Shown in pieces: positions 6,749 through 19,034 of a stretch of 64,000 nucleotides of DNA. The DNA comes from an uncultured Cohaesibacter sp. GTDB taxonomy: Bacteria; Pseudomonadota; Alphaproteobacteria; Rhizobiales; Cohaesibacteraceae. The notes under the pieces are model-generated. The model saw only the letters and a program-made list of their open reading frames with translations, was not told where the DNA came from and searched no databases. Numbering within the stretch: the stretch's first letter is position 1; each line of letters begins with the position of its first letter. A program made the position numbers and the translations under genes. The stretch is taken from contig NZ_OY782763.1 of NCBI RefSeq assembly GCF_963678225.1, positions 186,001-250,000 on the forward strand, read 5' to 3'.

Positions 6749-6793
6749 GCGCCCTCAGGTCGCTCCCAGTATACACGCAAACAGAAACAATCG

Positions 6794-6820
6794 GAGGTGC
6801 GCTCATTGCGCGCCTCTTTT
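6794..6820 (+). terminator. Rho-independent terminator of the TTT/isomerase operon
   Basis: GAGGTGCGC and GCGCGCCTC form a 9-bp stem with one G-T pair around the loop TCATT, followed by TTTT. It lies about 45 bases after the isomerase stop. Confidence 0.8.
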
Positions 6821-6890
6821 CATTTGGCCAAGAGGCCTGGCACAAAGTCGCATAAAGGCATAAATCAAGCCTACAGACACAAAAAAGAGC

Positions 6891-6920
6891 TGGGCCAATC
6901 GGCCCAGCTCACTTCTGTTT
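6891..6920 (-). terminator. Rho-independent terminator of the curlin-repeat gene
   Basis: GAGCTGGGCC and GGCCCAGCTC form a perfect 10-bp stem with a 4-base loop. On the minus strand it is followed by six T residues. It lies just after the stop of the curlin-repeat gene. Confidence 0.9.
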
Positions 6921-6942
6921 TCTGATAAGCGCTCAGTAGAAT

Positions 6943-8748
6943 TTACTGAGAAATACCAACATTGTTGTTCGACCCGCTCTGGGTGACAACAGATGTATTG
7001 CCAGCGCCATTTTGGTAGATGGCGACTTCGTTATAATCGCCACCAGAGATATCAACCGAAGAGTTGTTGCCATCACCCTCTTGGAGCATAGCAACCAAAC
7101 TGTTGTTGCTGTCGATAGTAAAGCTGGCAATGTTGTTTATACCATGCTGCGTAAGCTGACCGGAGGACAAAGAGGCAGATCCTGCTACCGAGCTAGCAAC
7201 ACCCGAGAAGCTTCCGGTGTCTCCGTTGCTATCGCCTGTGACGGTCAAGGTGAGGGAGTTATTGTCCGGAAAGCTGAAAGCACTATTACCGATTTGCTTA
7301 ACATCGAAATCGTTAAAGCTACCAGTTACATTAACCATTGCTGTGCTGGATGAGCTGTTGCTCTGAAGAGACGCAATCTCGTTGCTATCACCTACGATGA
7401 ATACCTTACTATCGCTGTATCTGGTATGGCCATCTGCCTGATAGGCTTGGACTGTGTTTCGGTCGCCGTCAACGTCCACCGCCAAAGTATTATGCTGCGC
7501 ACTGCGTGCCTGCACAGCGTTCACATGGTTAGCATCACCATCAATATAGGTCGAAGCGGTGTTCCCAACAGATGCCTGATAGGTGCGACTGTAGTTGAGA
7601 TCGCCCAATATCGTTGTTTCCGCATCCAGACCATTGCCACCTTGGTCAACAATGACTTTGTTGTTCGGCCCAGCACCGATAGCACTGGATGTGATGCTCA
7701 CTTTTGCATTGTGCCGAATGCTAGATGCACCGCTCTGAGACACATAGACATCGTTGTAGTCACCGGCATAAACCACGATGTCCGCGTCCGCTCCGTCCTT
7801 CTGGCTAAGAGAGATCAGGTTACCATTGCTGCTGTTAGATGTCTCACCCAAGGAGATGGTACCGACATTGTTGCCCCAGCCGGTCTGGCTGACGCCCACA
7901 TTGTTGTCGTTGCCTTTGATCTTATTGATAGTCAGGCTGTTGGCGTCGTTCGGATCCCCAGTGGTCTGCACAACACCAATCTCGTTGCGATCGCCCTGAA
8001 GCTGCAACGCTTGCAGCGAGTTAGAGCCACCATTTACATTTTCCTGAGTGACACCAAACTGGTTGTCATTCCCGTTGATGGAAAGCTTTGCCTCATTGTT
8101 GCTACCTGACTGGGAAATCGCGCTAGAGATCGCACCGGATCCCAGAGCATAACCGCTCAGACTGCCAGCAGTGCCGTTGCTGTTGCCATCAATATATACA
8201 TTGACAGTATTTACATCGGTCTGCGCATTCGCGTCATTGGTCTGGCTAACAGTGTCAATCGTGTTACCAGCACCTTTCATAACCAGCTTGGCAACATTTT
8301 TACCGCTAACTGTCGTCGTCTGAGCAACAGTGTTGACTTTGTTTCCATCACCGACGCTTTGCTCGATTTTCAGAAAGTTCTTGCCATACGCGCCTGACGC
8401 TGTGTTTTCATCCTGCAGAACAGAACCAACACTGTTGTTATTGGAGGTTTGCTCAATCTGTGCGGTGTTATTGCTACCAACCTGATCAAAGCCGTCCACG
8501 CCAAGCCCGATTTCGTTACCGTCGCCGCTTTGCGTAACCGTCAAAGTGTTTTTGTTACCAACTTGCGAAGCTGCATCGGCAGAACTGCCAAGCGTATTGT
8601 ATTCACCACTCGATTGATCGAGTGAAACGCTGTTCGCATCGCCCGTTTGTTCAACAAAAGCCTCATTTCCACCCGCAGCATAAGCATAACCAACTGACAA
8701 AAGTCCCACGGCAGTCGCAGCAAGAAGACCAAAACGAATTTTGTTCAT
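6943..8748 (-). CDS. Long curlin-repeat secreted protein (putative functional amyloid)
   Basis: A 601-residue exported protein with a signal peptide (residues 1-24, cleavage after AYA). The mature chain is built almost wholly of imperfect repeats of the form Q-x-G-x-x-N spaced by N-rich beta-strand units, for example VTQSGDGNEIG, VVTQSGSNNNVGISQ and AIYQNGAGN. This is the CsgA/CsgB curlin signature. It is about four times the length of E. coli CsgA (about 150 residues) and runs to the C-terminus in repeat. A GGAG Shine-Dalgarno lies 7 bases before the ATG. It stands alone with its own terminator; no csgE, csgF or csgG secretion genes lie in this window. Role inferred: extracellular amyloid matrix or surface adhesion. 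Confidence 0.85.
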   Translation of the reverse strand: MNKIRFGLLAATAVGLLSVGYAYAAGGNEAFVEQTGDANSVSLDQSSGEYNTLGSSADAASQVGNKNTLTVTQSGDGNEIGLGVDGFDQVGSNNTAQIEQTSNNNSVGSVLQDENTASGAYGKNFLKIEQSVGDGNKVNTVAQTTTVSGKNVAKLVMKGAGNTIDTVSQTNDANAQTDVNTVNVYIDGNSNGTAGSLSGYALGSGAISSAISQSGSNNEAKLSINGNDNQFGVTQENVNGGSNSLQALQLQGDRNEIGVVQTTGDPNDANSLTINKIKGNDNNVGVSQTGWGNNVGTISLGETSNSSNGNLISLSQKDGADADIVVYAGDYNDVYVSQSGASSIRHNAKVSITSSAIGAGPNNKVIVDQGGNGLDAETTILGDLNYSRTYQASVGNTASTYIDGDANHVNAVQARSAQHNTLAVDVDGDRNTVQAYQADGHTRYSDSKVFIVGDSNEIASLQSNSSSSTAMVNVTGSFNDFDVKQIGNSAFSFPDNNSLTLTVTGDSNGDTGSFSGVASSVAGSASLSSGQLTQHGINNIASFTIDSNNSLVAMLQEGDGNNSSVDISGGDYNEVAIYQNGAGNTSVVTQSGSNNNVGISQ

Positions 8749-9255
8749 TTTAATTCTCCAAATAGAATAGTCAAAAATCGCTACCAGTCATTGCATTCAG
8801 GCAGCACAAACACACCGCATAGGTATAAACACCTAAATATACACGGATCCGTTGCAGACATTTACCCTTCATTAACCCGCACCGTCAACAAATTGTTTAA
8901 AATCTTAAATATATTGTAAACAAATATAATGTATTGGTTAATTTTCAGATCCCCAAACACCGTACAACCAATTGGGCCGTTGTTTTCCAAAGCAAATTTT
9001 TGAGAAGCATAGCCCTGAGAAATTGGTAATTTTATCAGGCGGATAGCTCACTCAGAAATCTTGATGCACAAATCAAAATTTAGATGATGAGCTTAAGAAG
9101 GCACGTATAGACAGAATTGGTACAAACCCAGACAAAATGTCAGAACGTGAATTCTGACATCTAAAATCTGGTCGATAAACCAGAAGCAGCTTATGTTTCA
9201 TTCATGCTGAGAGAAAAGACCTGGCATGCCTACCATTTGTCTAACGACAAACAAA
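8749..9255. other. Intergenic region between curlin gene and island; promoter area and possible gene fragments
   Basis: The first part (8749-9000) is AT-rich and probably holds the long leader and promoter of the curlin-repeat gene. A perfect inverted repeat, ATGTCAGAA/TTCTGACAT with a 6-base loop, lies at 9137-9160. Two short frames look coding-like but lack clear starts: one ending at 9156 (LDDELKKARIDRIG...SEREF) and one from ATG 9204 to 9335 (43 codons) that runs through the 13-bp repeat at 9256. A hairpin CCATTTGT/ACAAATGG lies at about 9232-9257. I cannot assign any function. Confidence 0.4.
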
Positions 9256-9268
9256 TGGCGGAGGGGGA
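9256..9268. repeat. Putative attR: 13-bp copy of the tRNA-Ser 3' end
   Basis: TGGCGGAGGGGGA matches, base for base and in direct orientation, the segment at 18947-18959 that encodes the CCA terminus, discriminator and acceptor strand of tRNA-Ser. It lies 147 bases upstream of the integrase start. The match stops after 13 bases, shorter than many tRNA att sites, so decay or coincidence must be considered. Confidence 0.6.
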
Positions 9269-9414
9269 AGCAGCCATAACAGCTTCCGTTGAAATCCTTG
9301 AACATCCATTTTCGCCATTGATTTCATTCAGTTAATTTTCCCCTTACCTCCATCAGTTTCCACCAATATACTGCCCCATACATGTCAAATTGGGGGAAGG
9401 ATTGAGGGGATAAA

Positions 9415-10674
9415 ATGTTAGGATCCAAACTTTCAGCAGTCTTTGTTCGCTCTGTCAAAGAACCCGGAAAATACCACGACAAATCCGGCACAGGGCTCTT
9501 CCTTCGGGTTGAAAAAAGCGGAGCCAAATTCTGAATCCAGTAGATTACCATTCACGGCAAACGGCGTGAATTAGGGTTAGGCAGTTTCACTTTGGTCACT
9601 GTGGCAGAAGCGCGGGACAAGGCCTTCGATAAGAAGAGAAGTGTCTATCACGGAGGCGATCCCCTTGCTGACAAACAGGCCAAGAAAGGCACGATCACCT
9701 TCTCTGATGCCGTGGTCAAATATCTCGCAGCCAAAGAGAAGGAATTCCGCAACGACAAGCACAAAAAGCAATGGCGCTCTACTCTGGAAAGCTATGCTGT
9801 TCCGGTTATGGGCAAGATGGATGTCAAATCCATACGCTTGCCCGATGTGCTCCGTGTACTTGAACCGATTTGGGAAGAAAAGACAGAAACTGCCTCTCGT
9901 CTTCGCGGACGCATTGAAAGCGTTTTGTCTTGGGCCACTGTTGCCGGGTATCGCGAGGGCGAAAATCCCGCACGCTGGAAAGGCAATCTATCCGAGATCC
10001 TGCCCAAGCCCTCAAAGGTGGCAAAGACCGGCAATCAGCCAGCCATTGCCTTGGCTGACATTCCCGCATGGTGGGACGCACTCAATCAACGACAAGGCAT
10101 GGCAGCCTCAGCCCTTCAGTTTCTCTCTTTGACGCTTGCACGGTCTGGCGAGGTCAGAGGCGCAACTTGGGATGAGATTGATCTCAAGGCCAAAGAAGGC
10201 CCTGTCTGGACCATTCCAGCAACCCGCATGAAAGCAGCTAAGGAGCATCGCGTGCCTCTCCCTGATGCTGCGGTAAAACTTCTCAAGAGCTTACCGACGA
10301 TGGAGAATTCCCCTTATGTCTTCTTTGCGCCGAAAGGTGGTCAAATGTCGGACATGTCGCTTTCAGCCGTCATGCGTCGCATGCACCAAGCAGAGACAGA
10401 GAAGGGCAATACAGGTTGGCTTGATCCACGTTCAAAACGTCCAGCAGTCCCCCATGGTTTGCGTTCCAGCTTCAGAGACTGGACAGCAGAAAGAGGCTAT
10501 GAGCGCGACTTGGCAGAGATCAGCCTTGCCCACAAAGTTGGCTCAGAGGTCGAGCGCGCTTATCGCCGCTCGGATATGCTCGAGCGCCGCAGACTGATGC
10601 TTGAGGCATGGGCGCAGGCCCTTAAGGGCGTTGAACACCAAGAAACCGTTGTGCGCTTCACTCGAAACGAGTGA
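9415..10674 (+). pseudogene. int: P4-type tyrosine integrase with two nonsense codons
   Basis: The frame opens at ATG 9415 and encodes the DUF4102 arm-binding domain (KYHDKSGTGLFLRVEKSGAKF), then TGA at 9532 (codon 40) and TAG at 9541 (codon 43). It continues in the same frame (ITIHGKRRELGLGSFTLVTVAEARDKA) to 10674. In homologues these positions are normally Trp and Arg, so both stops look like point mutations. The catalytic domain is otherwise intact: ARSGEVRGATWDEI (Arg I), PHGLRSSFRDW (HxxR) and VERAYRRSDMLERR (the Tyr nucleophile). A TTG at 9592 could restart translation of a 360-residue protein without the arm domain, which would be unlikely to integrate correctly. Full length would be about 420 residues, typical of the family. 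Confidence 0.88.
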
Positions 10675-10929
10675 GCCAATCGAAAGGCTCCACGCATCAG
10701 AGACACGTTTAGAATCCCTCCAATCGGTTGAAGGAATGAATTTCTACACTTTTTTGAAAGTGATCTTTCTTCTCCAAAAAAACAAATAAAGCCAGATATA
10801 TAGAGATAGATTCAAATTTCAGCTTTGCTCGTTTATCCACCAAATTTCCGAAAAAATTGCTGACTTATCAACCAATCCAATTCCAGCCCTACCTTTTCCT
10901 CGTCCGTTAACAACCAACGAGGAACAAAA

Positions 10930-11139
10930 ATGACTGAGACATTCCTGAGACTACCACAAGTGGAGCTCCGGGTCGGGCTTCGTCGCAGTGCCATCTATCA
11001 GGCCATGAAAGAAAACCGGTTTCCCAAACCGGTCAAGCTGGGCATAAGAGCCGTAGCCTGGGCGGAAAGCGAGATCCTCTCCTGGCAACAGGCTCAGATC
11101 GCAAAGCGCGATGAAACTGCCCTTAGCAGGAAGGGATAG
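10930..11139 (+). CDS. AlpA-family (MerR-like) excisionase/regulator
   Basis: A 69-residue protein with the compact MerR-like helix-turn-helix of AlpA proteins: FLRLPQVELRVGLRRSAIYQAMKENRFPKPVKLG...AWAESEILSW. AlpA-type proteins act as recombination directionality factors or transcriptional activators of integrase genes in P4-like elements, which fits its place downstream of int. The Shine-Dalgarno GAGGAA is partly within a small inverted repeat (CCTCGT 10898-10903, ACGAGG 10917-10922) that could fold over it. The gene itself is intact although the integrase is not. Confidence 0.85.
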   Translation: MTETFLRLPQVELRVGLRRSAIYQAMKENRFPKPVKLGIRAVAWAESEILSWQQAQIAKRDETALSRKG

Positions 11140-11143
11140 TCCA

Positions 11144-11638
11144 ATGCCGAAACCGGGAAAAGAAACCAAATCAGAACATTGGACAAAGCTCATTCGCTCG
11201 ATGATGGAGGAACCCGCCTGGCGGGCTCTTTCTCCCACGGCACAAGCGCTCTATCCTTGGCTTAAACTCGAATGGCGCGGCCCGAACAACAATAACAACG
11301 GGCGGATTTGCCTAAGCGTCCGGCAGGCAGCCCAGAGGCTCGGCGTTAGCGACAACACGGCAGCGAAGGCCTTCCATGATCTGCAGGCAAAGGGCTTTAT
11401 CGTCCAAACTGAAACACCCTGCCTTGGCGTCAACGGAGCGGCTCGCGGTGCCATGTATGAACTGACAGAGCTCGCCAGCAGCAAGCAGGATAACCCGGCA
11501 GGGCGAAAACTCTACAAGACTTGGACAAAGGGCTCCGACTTTCCTATCAAGATTGCCAGAGCCAACAACCCGCACGGCAGAAACGGCAAAACAAAACCCC
11601 ATCGCAAAAAGGAAGACGTCACATCTTCAAATTTATGA
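11144..11638 (+). CDS. Winged-helix protein of mobile elements, function unknown
   Basis: A 164-residue protein starting at ATG 11144, preceded by AGGAAGGG. It begins five bases after the AlpA stop, so the two form an operon. A helix-turn-helix is visible at about residues 60-95 (LSVRQAAQRLGVSDNTAAKAFHDLQAKGFIV), followed by a short beta wing and a basic C-terminal tail (HGRNGKTKPHRKKE). Proteins of this type commonly follow AlpA in alphaproteobacterial integrative elements and may bind a replication or packaging site. The repeat cluster just downstream (11612-11731) would be the obvious candidate target. Function is not established. Confidence 0.7.
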   Translation: MPKPGKETKSEHWTKLIRSMMEEPAWRALSPTAQALYPWLKLEWRGPNNNNNGRICLSVRQAAQRLGVSDNTAAKAFHDLQAKGFIVQTETPCLGVNGAARGAMYELTELASSKQDNPAGRKLYKTWTKGSDFPIKIARANNPHGRNGKTKPHRKKEDVTSSNL

Positions 11639-12247
11639 CGTCGATAAATTCCACGTCTTCAAACTGAAGACAGGCAATCTTAAAAATGATGACGTTCAGG
11701 GCAGAATTCCCGGTCTGGACGTCATCATTTTCGAGACATCCTTAATTACCATATCATCAAGAATAAATTGAACGGATCAAGAACCGCCTAGAGGGAGGGG
11801 GGAGACTAAATCTTCACGGCTCACCAAACCAAGGACCGGCGAATTAGACGCATTTTTATGAGGCCGGAATTCAAAAGGAAAAACCCAAGATTACAGTTTT
11901 ACGGCAAGCAGAAGTAAAAGAATATCACGCATTAAAAATTCGAGCAAAGCTGCTCTAGGCACAAATTCTGCAAATCTGTAATAAGAGCAAAACGGCGTCC
12001 AATCGGATTACCGTTTCAGAAACCTTCTACCAAAGATTTTCAATTCAAAAATTTGCGCATCTATAAAAATTTCTTTTCATCCAACCAATAGTATTTATAA
12101 AAAATAGCTCCTATCGGCTGCCGTATTTCGTGAATACAAAAATTTATTAATAATTATTTCCACTAATTTACAGAATCCTAGCAACCATGAGAACGTACAA
12201 CCTTAACTAGCATCAACACAATACTGCGGTTAGGGGATACCTAAAAG
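11639..12247. other. Non-coding stretch with clustered ACGTC inverted repeats
   Basis: No gene is supported here. Five ACGT-core elements cluster between 11612 and 11731, starting inside the preceding gene's 3' end: GAAGACGTC (11612), GACGTC (11637), ACGTCTTC (11653), GACGTTC (11691) and GACGTC (11718). The remainder (11800-12247) is AT-rich with no convincing codon pattern. Confidence 0.5.
11683..11731. repeat. Perfect 13-bp inverted repeat
   Basis: AAAATGATGACGT (11683-11695) and ACGTCATCATTTT (11719-11731) are exact reverse complements around 23 bases. A second smaller one, GTCTTC/GAAGAC with a 5-base loop, lies at 11655-11671. There is no T-run, so these are not ordinary terminators. They may be a protein-binding or origin-like site. 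Confidence 0.75.
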
Positions 12248-12301
12248 TTGATCCCATCGAAAGCCCAAAAGAGGGAAGGAATCTCTCCAAGAGCGCCTTC
12301 G

Positions 12302-12790
12302 ATGTCCAGCGCAAAGAAGCCAAGGATCATGCTACGTCAGGCAACCATAGCCGATTTAGACACCCTTGTTGCCTTTTGTCGAGATGCGCATGAAGAAAGC
12401 TATTTGAGCGGCATTCCCTTTAGCGAAGAGAAAGCGTTTAAGCTTATGACCAATTGCGTAAGCGACGAGCATCCCAATCTTATTTCGATTTTAGCAGAAG
12501 CAAATGAAAAACCCGTTGGTTATCTCTGCGCTGCGGCAGGGGAGTATTATGTCGGTACAGAAACATTACTCACCACAGTCCATGTCATCCATGTCACCCA
12601 ATCCATCAGACGTAGCCTTCTCGGCGGGAAAGTGGCCATTCGGTTAGTGAGGGGGATTAAGCAATGGTCAGATCAAATCGGCGCCGAACATCTGCTATTC
12701 CATATAACTTCAGATATCCGCCCAGCCCAAAGCGACCGCTTTATGCGCAAAATGGGATTTAGAACGCTCGGAGGAAACTATGCAAAGTAG
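12302..12790 (+). CDS. GNAT-family N-acetyltransferase
   Basis: About 162 residues from ATG 12302; a TTG at 12248 would give 180. The N-terminal strand LRQATIADLDTLVAFCRDAHEES and the C-terminal FMRKMGFRTLGGNYAK are typical GNAT edges, with acetyl-CoA-binding positions near HVTQSIRRSLLGGKVAIRLV. The substrate is unknown. The 3' end (GGAGGAAACTATGC) doubles as Shine-Dalgarno and start codon for the next gene. A 16-bp copy of this end recurs at 14139-14154, revealing a second, lost GNAT copy. GNAT genes of this length are frequent in alphaproteobacterial phages and islands. Confidence 0.75.
   Translation: MSSAKKPRIMLRQATIADLDTLVAFCRDAHEESYLSGIPFSEEKAFKLMTNCVSDEHPNLISILAEANEKPVGYLCAAAGEYYVGTETLLTTVHVIHVTQSIRRSLLGGKVAIRLVRGIKQWSDQIGAEHLLFHITSDIRPAQSDRFMRKMGFRTLGGNYAK
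12768..12783. repeat. 16-bp direct repeat, copy 1 (GNAT tail plus RBS/start of next gene)
   Basis: TCGGAGGAAACTATGC encodes the last residues of the acetyltransferase (GGNYA) in one frame and supplies GGAGG and ATG for the overlapping next gene in another. It is identical to 14139-14154. Confidence 0.9.
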
Positions 12791-13379
12791 AGTGTGCACC
12801 AAATATATTACATTTATTTTCTCTTTAATATCGACAATTATATTCTCAAGCAATTCATTTTCTCAAGAATATATAAATAATAGTACAATATTTGAAATTC
12901 AAAATTCACTAAGATGCCCCAAAAACTATATATGCGAATTAGAAATAAACAAATGCGCCCTCAGAATAACAAGATCTAGAAAAATAAATTGTAATTTCAA
13001 CGGAGAAAAAAAAGAAATTAATGAAACCTTCTACTTAACAGATATAGAATCATTAAATATACTTAAAGACACTATTTTTATTAAATTCAACAAAAAATAC
13101 AATAAAAATATTTCTAAAATAATAAAAGATTACAAAACAAAAAGAAAAAATATAATACATAACTACAACATAAATAATACAAAATTCAATACAGATGAAA
13201 TAAACTCACTAAATACAAACAAAAAAATAAGCATAAGTGAAATAGTGTACTGCTCAAATAAAAATGAATACTACCAATCATACAACTTTATTGCGCTAAA
13301 AAATATTAACAATAAACAAAAAATAAAAACAGTAAATTACTTAAACAGAATAATAAAAAGCTGCAGTATAGGTGAATAA
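12780..13379 (+). CDS. AT-rich secreted protein of unknown function
   Basis: A 199-residue protein with a signal peptide (residues 1-29, ending near SNSFSQ) and several cysteines (about positions 45, 51, 57, 71, 164 and 195) that could pair in the periplasm or outside. It is dominated by Asn, Lys and Ile, with codons and base composition far more AT-rich than any flanking gene, a strong sign of transfer. The start overlaps the GNAT stop by 11 bases and uses the GGAGG inside the GNAT gene. The next frame opens one base after its stop. I recognise no family. Confidence 0.65.
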   Translation: MQSRVCTKYITFIFSLISTIIFSSNSFSQEYINNSTIFEIQNSLRCPKNYICELEINKCALRITRSRKINCNFNGEKKEINETFYLTDIESLNILKDTIFIKFNKKYNKNISKIIKDYKTKRKNIIHNYNINNTKFNTDEINSLNTNKKISISEIVYCSNKNEYYQSYNFIALKNINNKQKIKTVNYLNRIIKSCSIGE

Positions 13380-13380
13380 A

Positions 13381-14172
13381 ATGCCAATAAATTACAGAAA
13401 TTCAACAGATAATCATTTATATTAAGTCGTAGATAAATATATAAAATCTAGTGAATACTATAATAATAACGGATTTGTTGCCAATCACTTAGATGAAATA
13501 AAGAGTTATTTTATATTTGGGGTAGCCACCACTTTCATTTCCCCAGGAACGACTGTGGGCAAAGCAGTAATAAGTGCCTCTAGTAATGGATTTATAAGTT
13601 CCTTACTTGGGCTCTCATACAATGCCCAGAACGACAAAATATCCCTTCATTTGTCGGAAGCAAGCTTAGATGCACAGGGTGCTTCAGAAGAATTATTAAG
13701 GAGGTTGAATGTTCCTTCGCCCCAATATATCGGGGAAGATTTAGATAGGCTGTACATAAATTTCAACGGGAAACCAAACGATGACGTAGAAGGACAAGAA
13801 TTTTTTGTATTAGTGCATCCCGTTTATCCAACGATCTATCAATCTGAGTTGATGTTCAGAGACGGAATTAGTCACCTTGATTCATTTTCTTCAGCTAGCC
13901 AGTCAGAAAAGTATAACAGCCAATGTTTCCCTTCAGACACTTTGATCTCCACATCATCTGGCGACCGTCCGATTTCTGAGCTTTGTGTCGGGGACACCGT
14001 CTGGGCTTATGACGAAAATATCGATGCTGGACGCGGTGCGTTGGCTTTAAAAAAGATCACTCGTCTATTCCGAAATGCAACGGAAGAATGGATAAAGCTG
14101 AGTTGGCTTGAAGATGGAGAAGCACGGGAGCTAGTTGTTCGGAGGAAACTATGCGTGGTAGCTTGTTTTTAA
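13381..14172 (+). pseudogene. Hint-domain protein, interrupted and 3'-truncated
   Basis: The frame opens at ATG 13381, meets TAA at 13423 (codon 15), then continues open to 14172. Near the end it enters a Hint (hedgehog/intein) domain: CFPSDTLISTSSGDRPISELCVGDTVWAYDE, with the Cys splice-site residue and the VGD turn. The domain breaks off after GEARELVV, before the expected TPGH block, and runs out of frame into 24 bases of a lost GNAT gene (14138-14161). A GTG at 13555 could give a 205-residue product. Upstream of Hint lies a hydrophobic segment (YFIFGVATTFISPGTTVGKAV) of the kind seen in pore or pre-toxin regions. Hint domains are autoproteolytic release modules of secreted proteins and polymorphic toxins. 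Confidence 0.6.
14139..14154. repeat. 16-bp direct repeat, copy 2 (remnant of a second GNAT gene)
   Basis: Identical to 12768-12783. In frame TTC GGA GGA AAC TAT GCG TGG TAG (14138-14161) it reads FGGNYAW then stop, closely matching the end of the intact acetyltransferase. It also presents GGAGG plus ATG (14151) to a short frame that ends at 14204, overlapping the next gene's start. Confidence 0.85.
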
Positions 14173-14194
14173 TATCTCTAAACGGAGCGCACGA

Positions 14195-14791
14195 ATGTCC
14201 ATGAAGGAATGGCTCAAAGAAGCTAACCCTATTCCTTATGATGAAACCGAAGAATATAAAAGATTCAATGACGTGTTTGGATGGATTGAGGTATCAATAA
14301 TGATATTTTCTCCTTATATTTTGCTATTGATATATGGAGAAAACATTGAGCAAATAACAAGCTATATCCGAGACAACTTTTCATTGTTTCAAGATAGAGT
14401 TGAATTCTTGAAAACTTATGATAACTACTCCGCCATATCATATTCAGCCACCATTTTAACCAGCCTGTTATTTATGCCAATAATGCTTACCATACGCGTC
14501 GTCGGTTATTGGAAAACAGTCGTAGCAAAGCGACGCTGCAAAGGTTTGAACAGCAAAACCCCTTTTTTCCTGTTGTGCTTTACGACTTTGTTTCTTTGGG
14601 TTGCTGAGATTGCATTTCTAGAAGTACCACAAAATTTTGATCCCCGATGGCCAGGAAATACGAGATGGTTCTTCTGGCCATTGTATCCTCTAGTTGGAGG
14701 GGGCGCCGCTCTCTTCATAAATGCAAACATAAGCTTATTTTTAGTCGTAATCCTAAAACTCGTTTTCTTGCGAAGAGGTCATTATGAATGA
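14195..14791 (+). CDS. Integral membrane protein of unknown function
   Basis: A 198-residue protein with about four hydrophobic helices (near residues 30-48, 82-104, 124-142 and 162-192) and short charged loops (VVAKRRCKGLNSK). A GGAG site precedes the ATG. It is the first complete gene after the duplicated GNAT tail and overlaps the next frame by eight bases. I recognise no family. By position it could be an immunity-like or transport partner of the adjacent secreted-protein remnants, which is speculation. Confidence 0.55.
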   Translation: MSMKEWLKEANPIPYDETEEYKRFNDVFGWIEVSIMIFSPYILLLIYGENIEQITSYIRDNFSLFQDRVEFLKTYDNYSAISYSATILTSLLFMPIMLTIRVVGYWKTVVAKRRCKGLNSKTPFFLLCFTTLFLWVAEIAFLEVPQNFDPRWPGNTRWFFWPLYPLVGGGAALFINANISLFLVVILKLVFLRRGHYE

Positions 14792-15135
14792 CAAAACCAA
14801 TTCAAATCAGAACAACCCGAGCTCTGATAATAATATTGGCATGCCCTTTGCGGCATTTATCGAAAGATAGGTTTGAGTAAGACACAGAAAAAGGCAACGG
14901 AAGAATTGATTTCGAAGACCTCTAAACACATTGATCGTATCGAAAAAACACTCGATACTACAACGGATGTTGCAGAAAAAGCCAAGGATGCATTCGATTG
15001 AGAAACCCTAGAGATACATACTTTTCCGTCAAAAATGGACGCAACCTCACACCTGATGTAAAGACACAAATTGAGAAAGCTTTTTGGGGTACATTTCAAG
15101 GGCTAAACTATCATGACGTATTGTCATTTGGTTAG
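14784..15135 (+). pseudogene. Frameshifted small gene remnant, unknown
   Basis: ATG 14784 opens MNDKTNSNQNNPSSDNNIG and stops at 14868. The next frame continues as KIGLSKTQKKATEELISK...KAKDAFD to 15001. A third frame continues as RNPRDTYFSVKNGRN...TFQGLNYHDVLSFG to 15135. Each segment looks coding-like and they join end to end, suggesting one protein of about 118 residues broken by two frameshifts. The last block has the compact, charged look of a C-terminal effector domain, but I cannot assign it to a family. Confidence 0.4.
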
Positions 15136-15593
15136 TTTTTCAACCTACTCAACAGTATTTAGCAAGATCCAAAGAAATTATTAATGCCCTAATTGAGCAA
15201 GAAGAAGATGATTTACTAAAAGCGTTTTTAACAACAGCTTTTATTTATTGGAAAAGTACAAGTGATATAATAGAAGAAGTTCGTTGTATTGTCAGATTAG
15301 ATGATTTTGATGCTTTTGGAGACGCCATTATCGTAGCTCTAAAGGCGTTAGCCTCGGTTACCAATGAAAATAAATCTGCAATTGACCTTGAAGAATTGAA
15401 GGAAATCGCGTGTAAATACCTGAAAGATGGGAGCCTATTCGAGGCCGAGACTTACGCCGAAGCTGCTCTCTATGCAGCAACTGGAGATCGTCACATCCCG
15501 TCTTCATATGTAAAATTGTGCCTCAATCCAGAAATACTGAAGAATGTTAATGTTAATTTTGATTTTAAGTTGGAAAATATCCGCATACACTAA
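15113..15593 (+). pseudogene. Unknown protein, probably frameshifted near its start
   Basis: A long open frame of about 159 codons (15117-15593) has no usable ATG. An ATG at 15113 lies one frame off and stops after 20 codons, so an early frameshift is likely. The protein is helical and acidic (RSKEIINALIEQEEDDLLKAF, DIIEEVRCIVRLDDFDAFGD, LKEIACKYLKDGSLFEAETYAEA). It overlaps the end of the previous remnant, the arrangement seen for effector-immunity pairs, and its acidic helical nature would suit an immunity protein. A further coding-like fragment in another frame covers about 15544-15705 (DIFLDLPHIHMSESGE...HIPSFQYYK). No family recognised. Confidence 0.4.
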
Positions 15594-15743
15594 ACCGTGA
15601 TATTTTCTTAGATCTACCGCATATTCATATGTCTGAGTCAGGAGAATGCTTCTATCCTACTATTTTTAACCATAAGCATATTCCTTCATTTCAATATTAT
15701 AAGTGAGTCGATTTACATGGTGTCGTTTGCAACACTTCTCTTT

Positions 15744-16593
15744 GACCTGTTGACTAACTGATTAACCCAAAGCCTTGCGGATACGATGTGAACGAAGCCC
15801 AGATAGCTTTGAGCCGTTTTGGCATATCGTGTTGCCAATCGCCTGGCATTCTTGGGTTTATTGAAGCATCGTTCGATCTGGTTTCCCAAGGGATAGACGA
15901 ATGGGTCGAGAAATGGCGGCACCTTGCGATTTGATCAACCCGGAATAATTGCAATCCCTCCCTTATCCCCAATCTCCTGCCTGATGGCATTTGCGTCATA
16001 CACCTTGTCAGCAATGGAGACCTTGGGATCTGGCAAATCTTTGTCTTGCAACAAGCAATAGCCGATATAATCGGACCATTGACCGGGAGATATCTCAGCC
16101 TTAACAGGCAACAAGCCATAAACATTGGTGATCAGGTGGATCTTCGTCGTAAAGCCACCTTTTGAATGGCCAAAACCTTCTTTCGGAGTCCCCCCTTTTG
16201 CGCCCGCCACCTGATGATAGACTCGGCTGATAGTACTGTCGATCATCTGAACTTGGCTGGGAAGGGTGTCACTCTCGTTCAGGGCTTCAAGAATCATCTC
16301 CCAAAGACCCGCCAACGTCCAGCGCCGGAATTGGCGATAAACCGAAGACCATTTTCCGAATTCCTCTGGCAAGTCGCACCACTGTGCTCCTGTCCGAGCA
16401 ATCCAGAATATACCGTCCAGGACCAGACGTTGATCACCCGCCGGGCGACCGCCCCGGCCTCGGAACGAATGAGAAAAGGTTCAAAAAATGCCCATTCGGC
16501 ATTGCTCATCATCAACCGTGCCAAGATAGCCTCCTCGAAAGCTACCTTGAATCACATCTCAACTGATTTGCTAACCCAGTTTGTCAACAGGGC
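15744..16593 (-). mobile_element. IS5-family (IS427-like) insertion sequence, inactive
   Basis: Imperfect terminal inverted repeats CCTGTTGACTAACTG (15746-15760) and CAGTTTGTCAACAGG (16577-16591) differ at one position and enclose an 850-bp element encoding a DDE transposase on the minus strand. The right end abuts the IS3 remnant within a CTAG-containing junction (CTAGGCCCTG in minus orientation), suggesting insertion into the IS3 tail. Confidence 0.8.
15746..16524 (-). pseudogene. IS5-family DDE transposase with frameshift and nonsense mutation
   Basis: The start ATG 16524 gives MARLMMSNAEWAFFEPFLIRSEAG, then a frameshift near 16455 moves the frame to GRGGRPAGDQRLVLDGIFWIARTGAQWCDLPEEFGKWSSVYRQFRRW and the DDE core (MIDSTISRVYHQVAGAKGG, ITNVYGLLPVKAEISPGQWSD, IADKVYDANAI). 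A TGA after GGIAIIPG (about 15935) interrupts the frame; translation past it continues as SNRKVPPFLDPF...NQIERCFNKPKNARRLATRYAK, the normal C-terminal half. The early break lies upstream of the usual IS427 programmed frameshift point, so it is more likely a lesion than recoding. Confidence 0.8.
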
Positions 16594-16920
16594 CTAGGCT
16601 GCGTTCCTCTCGAAAGCGAAGGGGCTTTTCCAGCCGAGGGCTGAATGTTTTCTTCGCGGATTGTAAAGACCATTGATGTACTCGAAAATTGCCACTTCAG
16701 CTTGCCTTATTGATAGCCATCTTTTCCTCCAGATCAATTCGGCCTTGATGGTCTTGAAGAATGTCTCCACCGCCGCATTGTCATAACAATTGCCTTTTCC
16801 GCTCATGGATAGCCTGAAGCCGCGTTGACTAATGAAGATCTAGGATCACGGCGAGATACAGCCAACCTTCACGTGTCCAGACATAACCGGTGTCATTTGC
16901 GGTAGGGGGCGAAATACTAC
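16594..16920 (-). pseudogene. IS3-family orfB transposase remnant with internal deletion
   Basis: Two ends of an IS3 integrase-core transposase are joined. An upstream piece, NDTGYVWTREGWLYLAVILDLH, ends at about 16838 and is followed directly by QRGFRLSMSGKGNCYDNAAVETFFKTIKAELIW...YNPRRKHSALGWKSPFAFERNAA, ending at 16594. About 60 residues between, carrying the second catalytic Asp, are missing. The N-terminal half and orfA are also absent. The downstream end touches the IS5 inverted repeat. Confidence 0.8.
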
Positions 16921-16985
16921 CTTAAGCGAAACAAGAGCCAAATTTGTATAAGCGTCCGGCGAGATTATACGGATAGCCCATAGGG

Positions 16986-17005
16986 AAGGCGGGAACTCCC
17001 GCCTT
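16986..17005. terminator. Hairpin after the second Hint-domain fragment
   Basis: AAGGCGGGA and TCCCGCCTT pair as a perfect 9-bp stem with a 2-base centre, 20 bases after the stop of the minus-strand Hint fragment. T-runs are short on both sides, so termination strength is uncertain. Confidence 0.5.
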
Positions 17006-17025
17006 TGATTTCTGCCTGACACCGA

Positions 17026-17577
17026 TTAGCGAACCGTAACCTTCTTGCGCTTTGTCGTCTTTCTTGCTCTTGCTTCTGCAGCACGGCGTTGTTGACGGCT
17101 CATTGCCTGTCTGGAAGCTCGTGGACCATTTCGCATGGATAGGGGAACGTTGGAGGGGAGGGACTGAATTACAGCCGGATTCTTCGAAATCGATGCATTC
17201 GGTAGATCCAGGAATGAAGGCATTGGTGTTTGTGGTTGGATAGCTTCCCATTCATTGGCCTGATAGATATCATTCAGGGTCGGCGCCGAACGTTGCAATA
17301 CATAATCTTCGGGCTTAGGCAGACTGGGCGAATAGATCCAGGTGACATGTCCCGGAGTAACCATCAGCCCGTGCACATCGAGGATCTGTTTGGCTGCATT
17401 GATGAAGGTGCGTGTCACACGACCGGGCTTGAGATTGCCATCTTTATCATAAGACAGAACCCAATCGTCCGGCCCAACCTCTTCAATCGGCTTTTCAGAG
17501 CCATCCGCCATGGTGACGGGTGTCCCGGCGAGGACGCACTCGGAAGGATTATCTTCCCATGGCTTTTCTTGCGCGTA
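17026..17577 (-). pseudogene. Second Hint-domain protein fragment, 5'-truncated by Tn3 remnant
   Basis: The frame reads EDNPSECVLAGTPVTMADGSEKPIEEVGPDDWVLSYDKDG, the Hint opening with catalytic Cys, then NLKPGRVTRTFINAAKQILDVHGLMVTPGHVTW, which includes the TPGH block missing from the first Hint fragment. A basic C-terminal tail follows (RQQRRAAEARARKTTKRKKVTVR). The first in-frame ATG is 17511, already inside Hint, so the true N-terminus is lost where Tn3 sequence begins near 17578. This was the C-terminus of a larger secreted or self-processing protein. It is not simply the other half of the first fragment, because their Hint openings differ. Confidence 0.65.
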
Positions 17578-18835
17578 TTTTTCAGTTTGAACTCCACAAC
17601 GCCTTGCAGTCGGGTGATATTTGGCTTGCCTACAGCAGACGCTATCTGGAAATCACCACCGCTCTGGTGCCAATAGAGGCCGTGTCGAGTAGCGCCCGCC
17701 TTGCAGTTCCTCTCGATGCGGACGAGTGGCTGGACACGCGCAGCCAAGCCCTGGAAAACAGCATGCTGCAAATTGCTACCACCAATCAGGCCGGCGTTCT
17801 CGCCGGTGGATCAATTGTCGATGGCAAACTTCAAGTCGAACGTCTTGAAAAATCCGTTCCAGATGAAGCCGCAGCCTTTGTTTTCAAGCTCTATGGGCAC
17901 ATGCCATCCGCGCGGATCACCGATATCCTGCTTGAGGTTGACGAAAAGCACAACTTCACCGATGCCTTTACTGATCTTCGCACCGGCATAGCCTGCAATG
18001 ACCGGATCGGCGTACGCACCGTTTTGCTCGCCGACGGTGTCAATCTTGGGCTTTGCAAGATGGCAGACGCCTGTGACACGCACATCTTCTGGGAATTGCT
18101 GCGGATCGGAAAATGGTATGTGCGAGAGGAAACCGTTGCGCGGGCACTTGCCACAATTGTCGAGGGTCAATCCGAACTGCCGATGGCGCGGCTTTGGGGT
18201 GACGGGACAACATCAACTTCCGATGGTCAGCACTTCCCGGCAAGATCGACCGGCGAGGCATTGAACGTTGAAAATGCACGGTATGGCAACTTAGCAGGGC
18301 TATCAACCTACAGCCATATCTCCGATCAATATTCGCCGTTCGCGACGCAGGTCATTCCGGCGACGCCCCACGAAGCACCCTATATCCTGGACGGGCTTCG
18401 GCAAAACGATACCGGAAAGCAAATCTGGGATTTGCCGAACAAGCGGCTTATCCATGACAAAACAGTCTGGCACTGGCGTTGCGAGAAGTTGGTCGCCTTG
18501 AATGCTAGATCTTCATGCTGGACTGGTTAGGCAATGTCGAACTGCAACGCCGGGCGCAAGTCGGCCTGAACAAGGGCGAGGCTCATCACGCGCTGAAACG
18601 GGCTGTAAACTCTACCCGGCGCGGCGAAATACGTGATCGCACGTCCGAAGGGCAACAGCATCGCATTGCCAGCCTCAATTTGCTGACCGCCATCATTATC
18701 TAATGGAACATGCGGAAACTCGGTGAAATAGTCGCTGATCAGATCGCAAACGGCGAAAACATCGACGCAAACCTGCTTCCCCATATCTCGCCGCTGGGCT
18801 GGGAACATATAACTCTCACCGGGGAATATCACTGA
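17578..18835 (+). pseudogene. tnpA: Tn3-family transposase (TnpA) remnant
   Basis: The C-terminal 400 or so codons of a roughly 980-residue Tn3 transposase. The frame from 17578 carries NALQSGDIWLAYSRRYLEI, ...GIACNDRIGVRTVLLADGVNLGL and the DDE region LWGDGTTSTSDGQHF...NARYGNLAGLSTYSHISDQYSPF. An internal deletion near 18400-18510 then shifts the frame to FMLDWLGNVELQRRAQVGLNKGEAHHAL...NLLTAIII. TAA at 18701 stands where homologues have Tyr, and the frame resumes as WNMRKLG...HISPLGWEHITLTGEYH to 18835. The C-rich block just after (18841-18850) may be the outer end of a Tn3 inverted repeat. No resolvase is present. Confidence 0.85.
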
Positions 18836-18946
18836 GGCAAATGCCCCCCCCTCAAGTTAAGAGGCATAACAATGGAGGAAACATAGGGGGAAGAAAATTC
18901 CAAATCTTCTATAAATAATAATATTTCAATTACTTAAAAGAAAAAT

Positions 18947-18959
18947 TGGCGGAGGGGGA
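18947..18959. repeat. Putative attL: tRNA-Ser 3' terminal 13 bp
   Basis: The segment encoding CCA, the discriminator and the acceptor strand, identical to 9256-9268 in the same orientation. The tRNA remains complete on this side, as in tRNA-targeted integration. Confidence 0.65.
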
Positions 18960-19034
18960 GGGATTCGAACCCCCGGGACCGTGAAGCCCAACGGTTTTCA
19001 AGACCGCCGCAATCGACCACTCTGCCACCCCTCC
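18947..19034 (-). tRNA. tRNA-Ser (anticodon UGA)
   Basis: On the minus strand the acceptor stem GGAGGGG (19034-19028) pairs with CCCCTCC (18957-18951), followed by discriminator G and encoded CCA. The long variable arm typical of serine tRNAs is present, the anticodon loop reads CTTGAAA (anticodon TGA), and the T-loop GTTCGAATC is intact. Length is 88 nt. The 3' end faces the genomic island and serves as its attachment site. Confidence 0.97.

Follow-up and report, generated by a model that had tools for sequence, protein, structure and literature searches.

The window analysed here is a whole stretch of 64,000 nucleotides of Cohaesibacter DNA, in which the segment 9256-18959, lying between an intact tRNA-Ser(UGA) gene and a displaced copy of its 3' end, is a tRNA-Ser 3'-end island of the ordinary kind. 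We are highly confident that this segment is what is left of a P4-type integrase element which entered the 3' end of the tRNA gene, by the mechanism proposed below, and has since decayed. The features at its two ends are the following:

9256..9276, plus strand: left junction, a copy of the tRNA-Ser 3' end (9256-9268) inside an inverted-repeat core, TGGCGG-N9-CAGCCA
9390..9410, plus strand: two putative integrase arm sites, TTGGGGGAA (9390-9398) and TTGAGGGGA (9402-9410), at core +134/+146, the second found by eye
9415..10674, plus strand: P4-type tyrosine integrase pseudogene (Pfam), with in-frame stops in the arm-binding domain and intact relatives in genomes G013 and G012
18872..18892, plus strand: two putative integrase arm sites, ATGGAGGAA (18872-18880) and TAGGGGGAA (18884-18892), at core -75/-63, the first found by eye
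18947..18959, plus strand: right copy of the repeat, 3' end of the intact tRNA, by sequence match
18947..19034, minus strand: tRNA-Ser(UGA), the target gene, intact (ARAGORN, Rfam)

The 13-base direct repeat named in a preliminary description of the window was borne out: TGGCGGAGGGGGA occurs exactly twice in the 64 kb, at 9256-9268 and 18947-18959 and on the same strand, while 100 shuffles gave a mean of 0.01 exact matches and never reached two copies. When two mismatches are allowed, four matches are found against 2.0 expected, and the identity between the left and right copies ends at 13 bases on both sides. ARAGORN places the tRNA gene at 18947-19034 on the minus strand, in concordance with Rfam (18950-19034), the right copy being its CCA end. 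The intact tRNA and the co-oriented displaced fragment delimit the island, and an integrase gene, though a broken one, lies within it.

The ATG of this gene, at 9415, stands 147 bases after the left copy, as previously described, and two stops interrupt the frame that it opens, TGA at 9532-9534 and TAG at 9541-9543; the listed open frame covers only 9592-10674. Its product gives strong Pfam matches to Phage_int_M and Phage_integrase, the pair that marks the P4 type, and keeps the central and catalytic domains. A complete N-terminal arm-binding domain is missing: its last 30 positions alone match, below the Pfam cut-off. The integrases of G013 (92% identical) and G012 are open through this domain, and the genome of the window holds a single other integrase match, 32% identical. 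The island looks stranded and seemingly dead, a judgement made because of the two in-frame stops in the arm-binding domain and of a right half full of transposon remnants.

Comparison with same-genus loci

Loci from 13 same-genus genomes were compared at this tRNA. In all of them homology spans the tRNA and the genes to its right, and on the left it breaks off no more than 80 bases beyond the tRNA 3' end. The gene order rlpA-dacA-tmk-holB in the window points to an alphaproteobacterium. Within the fetched stretches, the left flank of the window resumes in three of the 13, each time differently. In G013, left homology stops at window position 6757, the tRNA following after a further 257 bases or so that hold neither island nor curlin gene. 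In G002, the closest by identity, the departure comes at 6765 and is followed by 28 kb of other genes. Finally, G009 keeps the curlin gene and the flank up to 9188, continues with a scrap of this integrase (window 9464-9514, 84%) and about 16 kb with another set of genes, and ends with window sequence 12456-13387 directly beside the tRNA; to judge from these sequences, the elements of G009 and the window seem to go back to one ancestral copy, whose decay took a different course in each. The tRNA-Ser(UGA) locus looks like a hot spot.

The end points of the island and its tRNA-Ser target are backed by this comparison. G012 is a distant member of the genus. Its similarity to the window starts at 9255 and extends to 10578, covering most of the integrase at 84%; its left copy, TGGCGGAGAGGGTGG, equals the end of its own tRNA, which differs from that of the window. 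Moreover, near-exact empty sites were found for two sister islands. G007 provides the one for the G012 island, with 79 bases of left flank and 15 core bases (93% together) running into the tRNA, while the tRNA-Ser(CGA) locus in the genome of the window provides the one for the G013 island (85% over 1229 bases on the left, 86% over 1612 bases on the right). For the island of the window, the site proposed in the preliminary description, with the left flank joined directly to tRNA-Ser and rlpA, was not found in exact form; G013, which has neither island nor curlin gene, offers an approximate one. An uninterrupted left flank in relatives, which would have spoken against the left end point, was not seen: the sequence 8760-9255 occurs in one of 17 other genus genomes (G009), where it stops at 9188.

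Two further loci were noticed in the course of the comparison. The insert of G002 at 194-222 kb (L028, L082), at the corresponding tRNA, is 28 kb long, and its genes look mostly metabolic. It begins with a gene copy 98% identical to one elsewhere in G002, each of the five genomes searched having this gene at another place, and no integrase of the window's clade was found in it. In G007, a second, broken clade integrase lies near a contig end in two overlapping pieces (L094, G007:C6:219508-220625).

Predicted attachment site and polarity of the integrase clade

The preliminary description regarded an integrase at the end away from the intact tRNA as the less common arrangement. An integrase alignment was scanned over 84,980 species genomes, and the best 80 of 554 confirmed relatives were examined. 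An isolated core resembling a tRNA end stands upstream of int in 74 of these loci, and an intact tRNA in two (L129, Arg; L178, Ser), while four were left unassigned (L136, L163, L165 and L179, a contig end lying too near in L163 and L165). The 74 are made up of 23 cores paired with a tRNA, 30 called by pattern and 21 called by eye from the upstream sequence, the last including L111 and L114 with a variant core and L162 and L167 with TGGTGG; for 51 of the 74 the locus itself showed no matching tRNA. A Ser, Arg or Glu tRNA stands downstream of int on the opposite strand in 24 of the 80 loci, and its end matches the core upstream of int by at least 14 bases in all of these except L102 (11 bases only). 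A separate integrase search gave 14 loci, the window included, with an isolated core in 12, an intact tRNA-Ser in G023 and one locus unassigned.

Among 34 other P4-type integrases of the order, which served as controls and are not independent, several being near-copies from one genus, 12 follow directly on an intact tRNA-Leu or tRNA-Phe, and a TGGCGG core of this form is absent from all 34; the tRNA-Pro of L066, over 1 kb away on the upstream side, was not counted, and the pattern matches in L066 and L067 are chance-like and not TGGCGG. Int at the far end is the rule in the window's own integrase clade, and the term less common suits the other P4-type integrases of the order. In a 125-row tree, four changes between the two arrangements of int and tRNA are required, a single branch takes in 11 of the 14 rows with an intact tRNA, and the integrase fragment of the window groups with G012 and G013 with a support of 99; the tree comes from a short search, includes neither the control L080 nor the loci G007b and G059, and has six long control branches whose position is unsure. 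The window shares with the clade the isolated core upstream of int, the spacing of the arm sites and the tree position, its arm match being short, at 8 bases.

The 23 scanned pairs of core and tRNA, together with six others (the window, G012, G013, G007, G034 and G042), give 29 element pairs, whose targets are tRNA-Ser in 25 (anticodons UGA, CGA, GGA and GCU), tRNA-Arg in three and tRNA-Glu in one, so that an integrase family that never targets tRNA-Ser, the other finding that would have spoken against the island, is not what is seen. At the left junction, 24 of the 29 have at least five of the six bases of a second core half, CCGCCA, while the tRNA side has at most two of six, which argues that this second half belongs to the element. 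The commonest form in the family is TGGCGG-N9-CCGCCA, the window having CAGCCA as its second half. Furthermore, sites 12 bases apart lie at about core -76/-64 and +134/+146; their sequence is element-specific and agrees between the two ends of an element, the longest match averaging 10.1 bases within elements against 6.0 between elements and 5.2 in a control stretch (0 of 2000 permutations). In the window the arm motif is informative by its placement alone, since its 15 matches with up to one mismatch do not exceed the 18.1 expected. The layout predicted for attP from the 29 pairs is therefore a core, TGGCGG-N9-CCGCCA, with four arm sites.

A comparable layout occurs in phages. Among 58 phage records with a related integrase, the int region of four was examined, and three of these have the core with arms on both sides or on one side in a single free molecule. 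The Acidovorax phages Acica and Alfacinha3 and the Caulobacter phage DMCA, all recorded as complete, have integrases 39-43% identical and a tRNA-Ser-like end near 12-spaced arm sites: pairs at -83/-71 and +159/+171 in Alfacinha3, one pair at -83/-71 in Acica, and sites at -74 and +102/+114/+126 in DMCA. Acica and Alfacinha3 have AlpA near int, as in the window, whereas in all three the CCA end points toward int, so that the core is reversed in comparison with the clade (noticed by eye and then measured). These layouts support the view that core and arms would belong to one molecule, and suggest that the turning of the core may be what sets the polarity.

The proposed mechanism can be outlined as follows. 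The target would be the acceptor stem, discriminator and CCA of tRNA-Ser(UGA). The integrase would bind the imperfect inverted repeat TGGCGG-N9-CCGCCA in attP, the first half of which is also present in tRNA-Ser 3' ends; it would bridge core and arms, with strand exchange predicted between the two core halves. The copy carried by the element would restore the tRNA 3' end, and the old 3' end would stay at the far junction, now 9256-9268. Relative to the core, int lies towards the tRNA body, which is why integration would bring it to the end away from the tRNA. Moreover, Int probably represses its own gene, because the int-side arm pair sits at the int start codon, the TTGAGGGGA site stopping four bases ahead of the ATG. 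Of this picture, the junctions, the layout common to the clade and the break in the integrase are read directly from sequence, whereas binding, the place of the crossover, autoregulation, excision by AlpA and the loss of mobility are inferences.

On a wider scale, we lean slightly towards the view that, in a large proteobacterial clade, the near-palindromic core fixes this inverted polarity, and that a core which turns while arms and int stay in place can flip it, as in L129, L178, G023 and the related phages; weak arm matches in eight of the 29 pairs and one negative phage have lowered our confidence somewhat. If this is true, surveys built on the adjacency of int and tRNA would miss most of the clade.

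Elements of the P4 and CP4-57 type, which we take to carry an integrase together with AlpA, share with the window Phage_int_M, Phage_integrase and the AlpA neighbour; the int of the window lies beside the remote copy and not beside the intact tRNA. The tRNA islands recognised by Islander run from an intact tRNA to a displaced piece of its 3' end and contain an integrase gene (PMC4383910); the end points and the internal integrase of the window are alike, whereas its integrase is broken and a cut in the acceptor-stem region is predicted. Negative autoregulation has been shown for IntS of KplE1, as well as for tested int genes with promoters that overlap their attachment region (PMC2951348). The overlap of attachment region and int start is shared by the window, whereas the KplE1 int adjoins its tRNA and that of the window does not. 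The survey in the same report took only tRNA-adjacent integrases (1273 of 8368), and the far-end arrangement falls outside its range. No description of far-end int as a clade trait was found in the literature searched, and since most subscription papers were beyond reach we do not claim that it is unpublished; in two papers "tRNA-distal" carries other senses.

While the element itself is ordinary, its relatives yield a full attachment-site prediction (core, overlap and four arm sites) for a widespread integrase clade, account for int at the unexpected end and flag islands with anti-phage genes. A PADLOC scan of ten selected proteins from the islands of G012 and G013 identified HerA, SIR2 and a PifA-like protein in the former; in the latter it gave a kinase, a type IIG restriction enzyme and a type IV nuclease resembling Mrr.

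Alternative readings

Several points weigh against the reading of the segment as an element inserted in this way. No exact empty site for the window island was found among the relatives, the nearest being G013 with its 257 or so bases between left homology and tRNA, and G009 has lost the left copy. The G007 site is imperfect, only its 79 flank bases aligning and none further out, and beside the core 71 bases in G013 and 270 in the tRNA-Ser(CGA) locus remain unaligned. The arm match of 8 bases in the window is short, and eight of the 29 pairs share at most seven. As the pairs were picked by exact match, the identity of their cores is partly a matter of selection, and 42 of 812 mismatched pairs also agree at 13 of 13 positions. 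Finally, in one of the four phages, Mwe-Yong1, no core was seen in the int region.

The shortness of the repeat, and the Tn3, IS3 and IS5 remnants that occupy much of the right half, would suit a chance match of 13 bases, the accessory DNA having arrived by homologous recombination or transposition; this is hard to credit, given the shuffle expectation and the arm sites at the clade spacing, and the start of the G012 similarity at 9255, together with its tRNA-matched left copy, is strong evidence against it. It is also most improbable, if a little less so, that the island is still mobile, through a short integrase starting at TTG 9592 or through another integrase in trans: the central and catalytic domains and AlpA are open and both core copies and the arm sites are present, but the short form would lack most of the arm-binding domain, and the sole other integrase match in the genome is the distant one already mentioned. 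A more serious, though still doubtful, possibility is a larger block, in which the curlin gene and the island (about 6760-18946) arrived together in a single insertion, or separately in two insertions at one tRNA. Both G013 and G002 are without curlin and island here, their left homology stopping at 6757 and 6765, but G012 homology starts at 9255 and not further left, and no further core copy lies near 6760 with up to two mismatches allowed.

Island contents and left neighbour

Ten open reading frames (ORFs) of the island were scanned against Pfam at an E value of 0.01. The remaining features, with the neighbour outside the island, are these:

10930..11139, plus strand: AlpA-family regulator (PF05930, E 3.1e-21), after the integrase; possible excision factor
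11111..11638, plus strand: helix-turn-helix-like protein after AlpA (Pfam, below cut-off), with a relative at the corresponding place in the G013 island
12248..13379, plus strand: GNAT-like ORF (Pfam, below cut-off) and AT-rich ORF of 199 amino acids; 12456-13387 adjoins the tRNA in G009
13555..14172, plus strand: Hint-domain fragment (Pfam, below curated cut-off)
15747..16598, minus strand: decayed insertion sequence of the IS4/IS5 family (Pfam), with related copies in G016, G010 and, several, in G005
16594..16806, minus strand: IS3-like transposase remnant, named by eye, with repeats in the same genome and in relatives
17520..18834, plus strand: Tn3-family transposase remnant, N-terminus missing and frame broken near 18520 (PF01526, E 1.7e-43 over 17520-18527; continuation by eye)
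6943..8748, minus strand: curlin-repeat gene, accessory neighbour outside the island; of the relatives examined, G009 alone has its orthologue in this position

For AlpA, a role as excision factor, which we assume from CP4-57, is a candidate role here. Among the ten ORFs, the Pfam scan matched no structural, helper-dependence or conjugation genes, and no cargo like the HerA, SIR2, PifA or restriction genes of the G012 and G013 islands. In 17026-17511 a Hint identity was assigned by eye alone, the Pfam scan giving no match. A TcdA/TcdB_pore match of the 199-residue ORF was dropped (19.4 against a cut-off of 27, in AT-rich low-complexity sequence), as was a Tn3 inverted repeat near 18845-18862, judged by eye and ambiguous. 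The G+C content falls to 31-40% in the four kilobases 12001-16000, against 45-60% in the remaining ones.

Some repeated sequences were also observed. A stretch of about 95 bases at 11793-11893 recurs at 75-81% identity in several genomes of the genus, at int loci and elsewhere. A second copy of 14904-15740, 93% identical, is present in the same genome (C2:2341956-2342788), with a partial match of 93% in G012. By eye, 13366-13400, the 3' end of the 199-residue ORF, resembles the right arm region 18882-18907, and the junction of such sequences in G009 perhaps reflects recombination between the two.

Contrary to the statement that everything outside the island is core, the left side is accessory at the curlin gene. 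This gene was searched in 21 genomes (that of the window, twelve of the genus and eight others, with G013-G017 outside the set), among which its only close relative is that of G009 at this place (93%), the other matches reaching at most 51% and lying elsewhere. It is missing here in G013 and in G002, a closer relative than G009. The genome of the window also has a separate curlin cluster, about 90 kb from the curlin gene beside the island.

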